Positions 4,628 through 7,254 of a DNA stretch of 64,000 nt are shown here, in pieces (the first letter of the stretch is position 1; each line of letters starts with the position of its first letter). A program made the position numbers and the translations under genes. The DNA is from Thioalkalivibrio sp. XN8. GTDB lineage: Bacteria; Pseudomonadota; Gammaproteobacteria; Steroidobacterales; XN24. The notes below the pieces were generated by a model. The model was not told the DNA's origin. It made no database searches and saw only the letters and a list, made by a program, of their open reading frames with translations. The stretch is taken from NCBI RefSeq assembly GCF_011058255.1, contig NZ_JAALFH010000067.1, positions 493,724-557,723 of the forward strand, in the 5' to 3' direction.

Positions 4628-4714
4628 TGGTGCCCGGGGCCGGAGTCGAACCGGCATGGTCTTGCGACCGGGGGATTTTAAGTCCCCTGCGTCTACCAGT
4701 TTCGCCACCCGGGC
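4628..4714 (-). tRNA. tRNA-Leu (anticodon TAA)
   Basis: Complete class II cloverleaf read on the minus strand. It has a 7-bp acceptor GCCCGGG/CCCGGGC, discriminator A and an encoded CCA (4628-4630). The anticodon loop is CTTAAAA, giving TAA. There is a long variable arm (GGTC/GACC) and a TTCGACT T-loop. In E. coli the equivalent leuZ ends the glyW-cysT-leuZ operon behind pgsA. Here it is separated from tRNA-Cys by about 2.3 kb of inserted genes. I see no convincing promoter in the 76 nt upstream, so it may rely on transcription through the upstream TPR gene. Confidence 0.97.
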
Positions 4715-4790
4715 GGCGAAACAGGAAAAGTAACACAGGCCAGTTCGGGTGCAGGCGCGCGGCAGCGCCGGGCACAGCCCCGTGCCTGCC

Positions 4791-6323
4791 TCAGCGCGGC
4801 TCGCCGGCCTGATCCTGCCCCGGCGCCAGCAAGCCGGCCCGCACCAGCCCGATGGTCTGCCGCCTGGCGGTCTCGGGCCATTCCCGGGAGATGGCTGTGA
4901 GGTATTGCCGGAAACCTTCCAGGTCGAACCGGGGGTTTGCGGCCCGGGCCCGGGCGCTGGACTCGGCCGCCGCAGCGGTGTCGCCGAGCGCACCCTGCGC
5001 GTTGGCGAGAGCCACCCAGCCGAGGCAGAAGCCCGGGTGGAACCCCACCGCGGTATGCGCGTGCTCCTGGGCCGGCTCGTACCGGCCTGCTTCCGTATAG
5101 CCCACGGCGAGGAAGTAATGCCAGAACGGCACCGAGGGGTGGTTGGGTGCTTCGTCCAGCAGGCGGTGGAGGATGGCCAGGCCCTCCTCGATCTCCTCCG
5201 GGCTGCCGCCCCAGACCAGGTTGCAGCCCACATAGCCCCAGGCCACCATGTTGAACGGGGCGATCGCCACGACACGGCGCGCGGTGTGCAGCGAGCGCTT
5301 GCGGAAGCCGCAGTTGAGCCACACCAGCGCGGCGTACTCCATCACCGTGGCGTCCCGCGGGGCCAGGCGCAGTGCCGCGTCCACCTCCGCCAGCGCGCGC
5401 CCGTTCTCGCCGAGGGGATCATCGGCGAAGGAATTGACGACCCGCTGGTTCAGCACGAACGCCAGCAGTACGTGCGCCATGGCGTTGTCCGGCTCCAGCT
5501 TCAGCGCCTGCTCCAGCCAGCCGATGGCGTCCGCCGACGCCTCCGCGGTGTAAGAGACGGTCCAGAACGTCAGCGCCTTGTGCGTGAGGCTCCAGGCCGA
5601 CAGCCCCTGGGGCGGCTGCCGGCAAAGGTCTTCCGAGACGATGTTGAGGTACTGGGAGCCGGTCTCCACGGCGATCGCCTCGGCGACCTCCCGCTGCACC
5701 TTGAACAGGTCGTCCAGGTCATGCTCGTAGGAAGCGACCCAGGCTTCCGTCCCCGACTGGGCATCGGTGAGGCGCACGATGATGCGCACCCGGCCAGGGC
5801 TGCGCTGGAACGTGCCCGAGAGGATATAGCGCGCGTTGAGCGCCTTGGCGATGGCCGCGGCGGGCTGCCCCGCCAGCGGCGCCGACTGGGCGAAGGGCAC
5901 GATGCGAAGATCCGGGACGCCGGAGAGCGCTCGCGTAATCTCCGCCGCGAAACCCTGTGCCAGTAGCGCGTCGTCCTCGCCCCGGGACAGGGACTCCAGC
6001 GGCATCACGGCGACGGATGCCTGCGCCGTGTCCGAGACCGGCAAGGGGCTTGCCGGCGCGGCGGGCGCCGCGACGCTGTGCCCGCCGAACGACCGGGGCC
6101 GGGGCGCCAACCACGCCAGCAACCCGGTCAGCACCAGCCCGCCAAAGGCAAGCTGGATATCGGTACCATGCAGCAGGAGCGCACGCTCGGGGTTCGAGAC
6201 CCACTCGACCGTGGCCAGGAGCATCAGGGAAAAGACATAGGCGCCGACTGCGCGGCCCAGTCCCCGGTCACGGGCCTTCTCCGAAGCCTGCGACCACCTC
6301 CCTGCCAGCATTGTCATCGTCAT
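4791..6323 (-). CDS. Membrane protein with TolB/FlgO-like domain and TPR repeats
   Basis: 510 aa from the first ATG. Two membrane spans are visible (about 27-42 and 57-72), then a low-complexity linker rich in Ala and Pro. A TolB-N/FlgO-like domain (about 100-225) opens with SVAVMPLESLS and includes ARYILSGTFQR and RLTDAQSGTEAW. TPR-like helices fill the rest (for example AIGWLEQALKLEPDNAMAHV). The same layout without an enzymatic domain is common in putative signalling proteins of gammaproteobacteria; no specific function is known to me. Three in-frame ATGs (6323, 6317, 6311) compete; ACGGA lies 6 nt before the second, so 6317 may be the true start. It is divergent from the TIR gene, and the two are probably functional partners. 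Its transcript leads into tRNA-Leu. Confidence 0.75.
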   Translation of the reverse strand: MTMTMLAGRWSQASEKARDRGLGRAVGAYVFSLMLLATVEWVSNPERALLLHGTDIQLAFGGLVLTGLLAWLAPRPRSFGGHSVAAPAAPASPLPVSDTAQASVAVMPLESLSRGEDDALLAQGFAAEITRALSGVPDLRIVPFAQSAPLAGQPAAAIAKALNARYILSGTFQRSPGRVRIIVRLTDAQSGTEAWVASYEHDLDDLFKVQREVAEAIAVETGSQYLNIVSEDLCRQPPQGLSAWSLTHKALTFWTVSYTAEASADAIGWLEQALKLEPDNAMAHVLLAFVLNQRVVNSFADDPLGENGRALAEVDAALRLAPRDATVMEYAALVWLNCGFRKRSLHTARRVVAIAPFNMVAWGYVGCNLVWGGSPEEIEEGLAILHRLLDEAPNHPSVPFWHYFLAVGYTEAGRYEPAQEHAHTAVGFHPGFCLGWVALANAQGALGDTAAAAESSARARAANPRFDLEGFRQYLTAISREWPETARRQTIGLVRAGLLAPGQDQAGEPR

Positions 6324-6347
6324 TCCGTTTTCAATACGGCCAAATGC

Positions 6348-6357
6348 ATTCTATGCT
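6348..6357. promoter_or_regulatory. Overlapping divergent -10 elements between the TPR and TIR genes
   Basis: Leftward TAGAAT (6353-6348) and rightward TATGCT (6352-6357) share two bases, so RNA polymerase could occupy only one at a time. A weak rightward -35 (TTTTCA) lies 18 nt upstream, and a leftward TTTGCC at 19 nt. The surrounding 87 nt is less GC-rich than the flanks. Confidence 0.4.
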
Positions 6358-6410
6358 GTGCTTCGAGCCATCGGCAAACGACCGCAGCACGGGGTTTTTC
6401 GGAGACGGAC

Positions 6411-6992
6411 TTGCAGGTAGCGGCGGACCCGGCGGGCGCACGAGCAGGAGCCTACCTGTTCGTGTGTTATGCCCACGACCAGCGGGACCTGGTCGTGCAG
6501 GAAATCGACTGGTTGCGGGAACAGGGCTTCGAAGTCTGGTTCGACGAGGCCATCGATGCGGGCCAGCGCTGGAGCGAGGACCTGGCCCTGGCGATCGAGG
6601 GCTGCGCGGCGATGCTCTTTTTCATGAGCCCCCGCTCCCTGTCCTCACGTTACTGCCTGGACGAAATTCACTTCGCCCTCGAGTGCGACCGGCCGATCGT
6701 TCCGGTGGAAGTCGAGCCGTCCGAGCTCACGCCGGGGCTGCGGCTGAGCCTGGGCGGCACCCACCGCATTTTCATGCACCGCATGGCGGCTGAGGATTTC
6801 CGGTCCAAGCTGGCCAGCGGCCTGCAGCGGGCCCTGGCCGGACTGCCGCCGCCAGCCCGGGGCGCGTCCGCTCCGGCCACGGCCAATGCGCCGCCGCCGG
6901 GCCCGCTGTTCTCCGCGCACTGGCGCCCGGTGGCACTCGGCGTCTTCGCCGCCCTGGTGGCCTTCATCGCCATGATGGCTGCAGGCCGCTAG
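6411..6992 (+). CDS. TIR domain protein with C-terminal membrane anchor
   Basis: 193 aa starting at TTG 6411, chosen because GGAG lies 6 nt upstream and the TIR fold begins just after it; the open frame further upstream only mirrors the opposite gene. The TIR domain (about 14-145) has AYLFVCYAHDQRD as first strand, a WFDEAIDAG BB-loop region and an LFFMSPRSL strand. Glu56 in WSEDL aligns with the catalytic glutamate of NAD-cleaving TIR domains such as SARM1, so NADase activity is possible. After an Ala/Pro-rich linker comes one membrane span (about 170-190), leaving the TIR domain cytoplasmic if the tail crosses outward. The gene ends 8 nt from the 3' end of tRNA-Cys. It probably works with the divergent TolB/TPR membrane protein; a defence or stress-signalling role is inference. 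Confidence 0.75.
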   Translation: MQVAADPAGARAGAYLFVCYAHDQRDLVVQEIDWLREQGFEVWFDEAIDAGQRWSEDLALAIEGCAAMLFFMSPRSLSSRYCLDEIHFALECDRPIVPVEVEPSELTPGLRLSLGGTHRIFMHRMAAEDFRSKLASGLQRALAGLPPPARGASAPATANAPPPGPLFSAHWRPVALGVFAALVAFIAMMAAGR

Positions 6993-7000
6993 GAAAAAGC

Positions 7001-7074
7001 TGGAGGCGCGGACCGGAATCGAACCGGTGTTCACGGCTTTGCAGGCCGCTGCGTAACCACTCCGCCACCGCGCC
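7001..7074 (-). tRNA. tRNA-Cys (anticodon GCA)
   Basis: Complete cloverleaf on the minus strand: acceptor GGCGCGG/CCGCGCC, discriminator T, encoded CCA (7001-7003), anticodon loop CTGCAAA giving GCA, and a GTTCGATTC T-arm. It lies downstream of tRNA-Gly, as cysT does in E. coli. No terminator is visible before the 3' end of the convergent TIR gene, so read-through would be antisense to the TIR mRNA. Confidence 0.97.
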
Positions 7075-7143
7075 ATGGGGTTCCCGCGAGGGGGGGAACC
7101 GGGGTCGAACTCTACCACAGCCGGCGGCCGTGGAGCCCAAAGA

Positions 7144-7169
7144 AAAGCCCGGCGCGGAGGCCGGGCTTT
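7144..7169 (-). terminator. Rho-independent terminator after tRNA-Gly
   Basis: Perfect 10-bp inverted repeat AAAGCCCGGC / GCCGGGCTTT with a 6-nt loop. On the minus strand it is followed by a CTTTTCTTT stretch. It lies between tRNA-Gly and tRNA-Cys, so it should reduce or stop transcription into tRNA-Cys, unless RNA processing or partial read-through supplies that tRNA. Confidence 0.7.
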
Positions 7170-7178
7170 CGGCGTGTC

Positions 7179-7254
7179 TGGAGCGGGAAACGAGACTCGA
7201 ACTCGCGACCCCAACCTTGGCAAGGTTGTGCTCTACCAACTGAGCTATTCCCGC
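7179..7254 (-). tRNA. tRNA-Gly (anticodon GCC)
   Basis: Complete cloverleaf on the minus strand: acceptor GCGGGAA/TTCCCGC, encoded CCA (7179-7181), anticodon loop TTGCCAA giving GCC, and a GTTCGAGTC T-arm. It follows pgsA by 67 nt and has a strong promoter of its own directly upstream. Confidence 0.97.

Follow-up and report, generated by a model that had tools for sequence, protein, structure and literature searches.

The tRNA genes glyW, cysT and leuZ of Escherichia coli K-12 form an uninterrupted cluster next to pgsA and uvrC, with spacers of 54 and 12 bp, the latter between cysT and leuZ. The same tRNA species, order, strand and upstream uvrC-pgsA are found in the window, a stretch of 64,000 nucleotides from Thioalkalivibrio sp. 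XN8 (contig C33, positions 493724-557723, of a 3.1-Mb genome in 67 contigs, here labelled G000), but there the second spacer measures 2,286 bp (4715..7000) and holds two genes. The minus strand reads uvrC, pgsA, tRNA-Gly(GCC) (7179..7254), tRNA-Cys(GCA) (7001..7074), the insert, tRNA-Leu(UAA) (4628..4714) and a gene for an S9-family peptidase; pgsA and the three tRNAs follow one another on one strand, and all three minus-strand tRNAs are called by ARAGORN and Rfam alike. The insert encodes a TIR protein (6411..6992, plus strand, TTG start, 193 aa) and a TPR protein (4791..6323, minus strand, 510 aa). Their genes are divergent, separated by 87 bp (6324..6410), and 8 nt separate the TIR stop codon from the 3' end of tRNA-Cys. 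This layout, the E. coli comparison and the 8-nt distance had been proposed in an earlier sequence-only reading, and the tRNA callers, Pfam and the coordinates bear them out; its span for the pair, 4628-7254, does include both genes but also takes in the three tRNAs, the pair alone covering 4791-6992. The insertion in the tRNA cluster is real, old and vertically kept. The best overall explanation, considered fairly probable, combines a junction of repeated settlement, gain of the pair after the split from a more distant congener (G002), and a sensor/effector system split into two genes.

Both tRNA-Gly gene islands and TIR-TPR proteins are known already, and the window is a variant of both. Islands of the ICEclc family occupy tRNA-Gly genes in pseudomonads; the main text of PMC13393423 describes insertion into tRNA-Gly genes and does not contain the term 'pgsA'. 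Like these, an island in G002 appears, from its 51-bp repeat, to be targeted to tRNA-Gly, whereas the insert of the window lies at the tRNA-Cys/tRNA-Leu junction, is 2.3 kb long and yielded no integrase or repeat. The domains of the pair recur in single-chain TIR-TPR proteins, which may or may not have a membrane helix and a TolB_N/FlgO-like part; in the nearest of these (L007, L008 and L202) the TIR part is 36-41% identical to that of the window. PMC7075850 describes a type with TIR and C-terminal TPRs, 'group 6', made up mainly of actinobacterial TIRs. By contrast, the window has two divergent genes, each product with its own predicted hydrophobic helices. PMC2605562 reports Xylella prophage remnants near a tRNA-Cys, in a different gene neighbourhood. 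Titles and abstract beginnings of the open-licence literature gave nothing on this tRNA junction as an insertion site and, for TIRs with TolB, CadC or TPR parts, no split pair.

The search for relatives gave two congeners, the closer G001 and the more distant G002. G002 has the order pgsA-Gly-(15,713 bp)-Cys-(22 bp)-Leu-S9 peptidase, G001 the order pgsA-Gly-(104 bp)-Cys-(7,452 bp)-Leu-S9. Right behind the tRNA-Cys of G001, at the same junction, lie orthologues of the TIR and TPR genes (86% and 88% identical), followed by additional genes with RoxA-like cytochrome c, catalase and strictosidine-synthase-like domains. A junction that is near-empty in G002, holds the pair in the window and holds the pair plus others in G001 supports the insertion between tRNA-Cys and tRNA-Leu that the sequence-only reading had put forward. 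The comparison of pgsA-tRNA regions proposed there as a check yielded both uninterrupted junctions (22 bp in G002, 12 bp in E. coli) and unlike cargo in relatives; nor is the pair common to all relatives, the outcome named as speaking against insertion, being present in G001 and absent from G002. With a near-empty site in a congener, the locus offers a clean case of accessory genes set between two often-adjacent tRNA genes. The common ancestor of the window species and G001, after its split from G002, would have gained a 2.3-kb divergent TIR/TPR module, which would then have been inherited with the chromosome under purifying selection, further genes entering the same junction in G001.

Parsimony with outgroups points to gain of the pair, rather than loss, as the simpler reading. 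Two points weigh against it: with only two other species of the genus listed, the choice between gain and loss in G002 depends on this parsimony with outgroups, and the Cys-Leu junction is interrupted in three members of the family as well (G003, G004 and G005, by 0.58, 0.86 and 0.83 kb). These interruptions would favour a pair that predates the genus and was lost in G002, Cys-Leu adjacency being restored by deletion, as would the rearrangement of the G002 cluster elsewhere, by the 15.7-kb insertion between Gly and Cys. Such a loss is nevertheless judged improbable. The junction gene of G004 and G005 encodes DUF4412 and not TIR/TPR, the Cys-Leu spacers of G002 (22 bp), ten members of the order (8-33 bp) and E. 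coli (12 bp) resemble the unbroken state, and in G003 and G004 the TIR proteins closest to that of the window are fusions encoded on contigs other than that of pgsA. As a separate observation, the tRNA-Leu(UAA) of G001 (contig C25:154032-154118; L160:1533-1619) is 87% identical to that of the window, compared with 98% for the more distant G002; by reading, several of the G001 changes affect base-paired positions of the stems, which would fit a replacement of the gene.

Synonymous divergence (dS) between G000 and G001 amounts to 0.53 for TIR and 0.51 for TPR, beside 0.55 for pgsA, 0.82 for uvrC and 0.74 for the S9 peptidase gene. The common ancestor of these two species most likely already had the pair at this site, which makes it no fresh arrival. 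The corresponding ratios of non-synonymous to synonymous divergence (dN/dS) are 0.146, 0.128, 0.128, 0.066 and 0.126. With values of 0.146 and 0.128 between orthologues, TIR and TPR behave as real genes, and both are, judging from these ratios, under purifying selection. A foreign base composition was considered and rejected, since GC content is 0.70 in both genes and 0.66-0.71 in four neighbours; at third codon positions (GC3) the pair reaches 0.86-0.89 and the neighbours 0.87-0.95.

The relatives search covered 59 genomes including that of the window, with pgsA found at an expectation value (E) of 1e-20 in 57 and the locus read in 52 of these 57; among named loci, the best 80 of 591 were read, 46 of them with Pseudomonas in the title. 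tRNA-Cys and tRNA-Leu are both placed, in order and on the pgsA strand, in 20 of the 52 relatives and 25 of the 80 named loci. Unplaced loci have contig ends, inverted tRNAs, or Cys or Leu outside the DNA read, and 32 loci read over 6 kb or more show Gly without a Cys in place. Linkage of the Gly, Cys and Leu genes is common, not universal; its absence for tRNA-Leu, earlier named as evidence that would tell against the insertion, holds within the DNA read for many relatives but not for all. Of the 45 placed loci, 22 have no more than 100 bp between Cys and Leu, 13 have 101-600 bp and 10, including the window and G001, have more than 600 bp; between Gly and Cys, more than 600 bp are found in 10 of 69 loci.

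The cargo of the Cys-Leu junction differs from locus to locus. It includes a sulfatase with a sulfatase-modifying enzyme (L088), an RTX-repeat protein (L092), a TPR glycosyltransferase (L034), a response regulator (L140), DUF6152 (L121), an island with a ParA-type ATPase (L096) and the DUF4412 gene of G004 and, outside the 45-locus count, G005; no clear gene was found in the gap of L115. Cargo beside a tRNA gene that varies among relatives is a trait which the insert of the window shares with integrase-borne islands. The cluster is a site of repeated settlement by differing accessory genes, and its junctions hold unlike cargo across gammaproteobacteria. The Cys-Leu junction downstream of pgsA would be one of several spots in the cluster that repeatedly take accessory DNA. 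The DUF4412 gene of the two family genera (L106:5969-6700, L161:2362-2988) points towards tRNA-Cys, as the TIR gene of the window does.

At least some of this settlement is, on the repeats found, classical tRNA integration. The 7-kb Cys-Leu insert of L096 (Pseudomonas sp. PB101, 9746-16587) has at its distal end a 47/47-bp copy of the 3' part of tRNA-Cys, which is direct evidence of an island that used this gene. In G002 (contig C34, ~366-382 kb; L104, L159), tRNA-Gly lies at one end of a 14.5-kb stretch and a 50/51-bp copy of the tRNA-Gly 3' part at the other. Shorter matches to tRNA-Gly 3' parts occur in L072 and L099 (26 and 22 bp), and L092 has an 18-bp repeat of the tRNA-Cys 3' part with one mismatch. 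The genes of the G002 stretch encode penicillin-binding-transpeptidase, beta-lactamase-family and FAD-monooxygenase domains and, by reading, a TetR-type-like regulator.

The pair of the window may have entered within an integrase-borne island at the tRNA-Cys 3' end, since old and decayed, or by recombination between conserved flanks. Several results weigh against integration of the classical kind: the PF00589 integrase model has no match on contig C33 of the window or on contig C34 of G002, and BLAST finds no tRNA-derived repeat in the window insert down to a length of 14 bp. That the insert is the remnant of an island attached at the tRNA-Cys 3' end, with the pair as its cargo, is accordingly held to be rather doubtful, despite a start directly at that end, 8 nt from the TIR stop codon, and the 47-bp and 18-bp repeats of L096 and L092; the native GC and GC3 of the pair speak against it as well. 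An attachment-site remnant was looked for in the window and not found: the best ungapped matches of the tRNA-Cys 3' 12, 15, 18, 22 and 30 nt were equalled or beaten in 189-200 of 200 control segments. A repeated TGCAGGCCGCT, seen by eye near the TIR stop codon and in tRNA-Cys, is taken as chance, none being present at the TIR stop of G001.

The TIR protein matches PF13676 (TIR_2) at E=8.8e-21, with 75.1 bits against a cut-off of 28, and PF01582 with 30.5 bits against 21.3. Its domain spans approximately residues 14-140, and a lone hydrophobic segment (174-192) lies at the C-terminal end. The fifty Foldseek matches shown for its AlphaFold model, which has a mean predicted local distance difference test (pLDDT) score of 76, are all described as TIR proteins or TIR-containing complexes; among them are SPARTA, NLR and MyD88 entries, presumably as TIR-domain holders. 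Profile matches include SARM1 (3.8e-13) and, more weakly, Cat1 and AbTIR. Glu85 is invariant in all seven aligned TIRs and aligns with the Glu of HKEIVTAL in SARM1, which is presumably the catalytic Glu642. PMC7075850 ties a conserved Glu to NADase activity, yet reports it in more than 70% of all TIR domains, so the residue is not sufficient to assign that activity. The protein thus keeps the glutamate of the NADases and is a plausible candidate for an enzyme consuming nicotinamide adenine dinucleotide (NAD+).

At E 1e-18 the only match to the TIR protein among 369 genomes of the class is G000 itself, and at E 1e-14 matches occur in 15 of 396 genomes of the order, including its own. Of the 17 places listed at E 1e-14, two are short frames, the genes of G000 and G001 (open frames of 341 and 252 aa), and the other 15 lie in frames of at least 513 aa. 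No match was obtained at E 1e-8 in 72,556 plasmids. On these class, order and plasmid searches, a widespread system and spread by mobile elements were both rejected. The TIR domain sits in a longer protein in all nine loci of TIR relatives that were read (at least 512 aa, three running off the locus). In six of the nine it is joined to TPRs, as recognised by Pfam (L007, L008, L202 and L204), by alignment to the window TPR protein (L205) or by reading (L009). Four of these (L007, L202, L204 and L205) align to the window TPR protein across its alpha-beta domain too, and TolB_N/FlgO Pfam matches in L007 and L204 fall below the cut-off. Fusions of TIR and TPR are also present in G000 itself (L002, L004). 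Contig C17 of G000 carries four further TIR matches (L002-L005), in open frames of 626-752 aa, and two of these, L003 and L005, point apart with about 220 bp between their TIR parts.

The TPR protein consists of two N-terminal hydrophobic model helices (22-43 and 53-72), a Pro-rich linker, an alpha-beta domain (~101-203) and a TPR superhelix (~243-495). At a hydropathy cut-off of 1.6 the second helix alone passes in G000 and both pass in G001. Basic residues before the first helix and after the second suggest that the soluble part of the protein is cytoplasmic, alongside the TIR protein. The alpha-beta domain gives a sub-threshold FlgO match only (E 0.007). The periplasmic domain of CadC, presumably built of an alpha-beta part followed by a helical TPR-like domain, has the layout of the TPR model, and Foldseek matches it in 3ly7, 3ly8, 3ly9 and 3lya; TPR superhelices come first, with CadC at rank 12. 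In contrast to CadC, the window protein has no DNA-binding domain by Pfam, template-modelling scores (TM-scores) are 0.24-0.28 of the query, and TPR superhelices rank above.

The pair is best read as a probable two-gene sensor/effector system. TIR-TPR fusions elsewhere and a divergent promoter region kept in G001 make a joint function likely. The TPR protein would be a membrane-tethered sensor, its alpha-beta and TPR module resembling the sensor part of CadC, and the TIR protein a membrane-anchored effector which, once the sensor is triggered, would consume NAD+ or make a nucleotide signal. The pair would then be the two-gene form of single-chain TIR-TPR proteins of the same family and genome, some of which have a TolB_N/FlgO-like part in between. 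Its genes are separate and on opposite strands in both G000 and G001, so a single TIR-TPR polypeptide is not encoded there. As a natural two-gene form, the pair would make sensor and effector separately expressible and removable, and so lends itself to asking what switches the TIR protein on.

Several observations tell against this sensor/effector reading. The link between the two roles draws on the fusions and the divergent adjacency. The AlphaFold models were built on 7-sequence alignments, with mean pLDDT 76 for TIR and 79 for TPR; the TPR model helices are of low confidence, block means over the first 100 residues being 29-54, and CadC at rank 12 has a query TM-score of 0.25. Three of the nine TIR relatives (L200, L201 and L203) have other partners, and the nearest TPR relatives outside the congeners (L181, L182 and L184, 30-33% identical) have no TIR gene within 1-1.5 kb of flank, a fourth, L183, having almost no upstream DNA. 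In the 396 order genomes, with the top three candidates per genome scored, none of the TPR matches listed other than those of G000 and G001 exceeds 35% identity. The missing TIR genes beside L181, L182 and L184 would favour two unrelated neighbours, divergent by chance. This is regarded as unlikely, since the divergent layout and overlapping -10-like boxes are kept in G001 and TIR is fused to TPRs in L007, L008, L202, L204, L205, L002 and L004. The TIR domains of L200 and L201, 44% and 35% identical to that of the window, open large proteins that continue, by reading, with a sulfatase-modifying-enzyme-like part, another partner within this branch of TIRs.

Bacterial TIR enzymes that have been characterised often serve in defence against phages. 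One such case is described in PMC12847820. ThsB of Thoeris and other defence TIRs have the TIR fold and a catalytic-type Glu in common with the TIR protein of the window, but the latter scores 21.3 bits with the best NCBIfam Thoeris model, far below the cut-off of 220, and at best E 0.00045 with the PADLOC ThsB models. The TPR and S9 neighbours match no PADLOC family, and the locus does not show the Thoeris combination of a ThsB-type TIR and a ThsA partner. A defence label by PADLOC or NCBIfam was consequently rejected, as TIR has weak partial matches only and the TPR protein belongs to no defence family. The 18 cargo proteins of nine other Cys-Leu loci include four with a PADLOC match at E 1e-5: L096 has matches to PDC-S31 (7.5e-25) and PDC-S09 (1.8e-10) and a 36-residue methyltransferase match (2.4e-07), and the match of L034 falls in TPR repeats. 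Candidate defence genes can land at the junction, and most of the cargo tested is not of that kind. The earlier description of such inserts as accessory, often defence, genes therefore fits as to accessory genes and for one island with candidate-defence genes, L096, but not for the 14 of 18 cargo proteins without a PADLOC match.

A defence role of the pair is plausible. A non-immune envelope or metabolic signalling module, with TIR as an adaptor or low-level NAD+ enzyme, is a serious competitor, rated somewhat short of even. CadC-type sensors respond to envelope signals, Pfam assigns several cargo proteins to ordinary families (sulfatase, cytochrome c, catalase), and the 14 unmatched cargo proteins, the steady purifying selection on the pair and the lack of plasmid matches to TIR all favour signalling. 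The frequent use of TIR enzymes against phage, the candidate-defence genes of L096 at the same junction and the restriction of the pair to two species among the genomes searched speak for an immune function instead.

Within the cluster, tRNA-Gly has a sigma-70-like promoter (7267..7294, minus strand), TTGACA-16-TAGAAT, with 11/12 matches; 0 of 200 shuffles are as good, and the same site is present in G001 and G002. Between tRNA-Gly and tRNA-Cys, a hairpin scan gives a terminator-like hairpin with a T-rich tail (scan core 7146..7162, minus strand), also present in G001 by reading. One hairpin against 1.3 expected in shuffled DNA is not significant by count, and the terminator-like reading follows from its position and conservation. 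Upstream of tRNA-Cys lies a TG-extended -10-like TAGAGT (3 of 200 shuffles as good). The candidate for tRNA-Leu (4727..4755, minus strand; CCTGCA-17-TACTTT) is weak, its TG-extended TACTTT lying 12 nt upstream of the gene, and 15 of 200 shuffles are as good in the window and 16 of 200 in G001; the -10 block is common to G001 though the sequence further upstream differs. In G002, where Leu lies 22 bp behind Cys, the promoter scan finds no tRNA-Leu site, and at the other interrupted junctions the scan for Leu is mostly at shuffle level, with the exception of L034 (0 of 200). The suggestion that tRNA-Leu had lost its operon promoter thus holds at most in part, given the hairpin after Gly, the promoter-like site of tRNA-Cys itself and the weak tRNA-Leu candidate shared with G001.

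Within the 87-bp region between the pair, -10-like boxes of both directions overlap at ATTCTATGCT, the plus-strand box by reading; the scan gives a minus-strand promoter-like site at 6377-6348, and ATTCTATGCTG is also found in G001. On geometry, transcripts reading through from tRNA-Cys could run antisense to the TIR mRNA, and the genes are arranged alike in G001. It is highly improbable, and offered as speculation, that this tail-to-tail arrangement (8-9 nt in both species) lets antisense read-through restrain a toxic TIR, and that shut-off of host transcription or tRNA cutting by a phage would lift the brake, whereupon a membrane TIR gated by its TPR partner would drain NAD+.

The remaining features are backbone. 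On the minus strand, uvrC (7912..9747; start set by homology) is 91% identical to that of G001 over 604 codons, and pgsA (7322..7906; PF01066 CDP-OH_P_transf, E=3e-36) flanks the cluster on one side. The S9-family peptidase gene (2659..4608, minus strand; PF00326, E=1.4e-36) adjoins tRNA-Leu in G001 and G002 too. A tRNA-Ala called by ARAGORN at 1358-1440 on the minus strand was rejected as probably false, lying inside an acyl-CoA-synthetase-like frame on the other strand and having no Rfam call. In Pseudomonas neustonica (L039:9738-9873), the interval from pgsA to the complete tRNA-Gly gene contains the first 33 bases of tRNA-Gly twice more (33/33 and 32/33).

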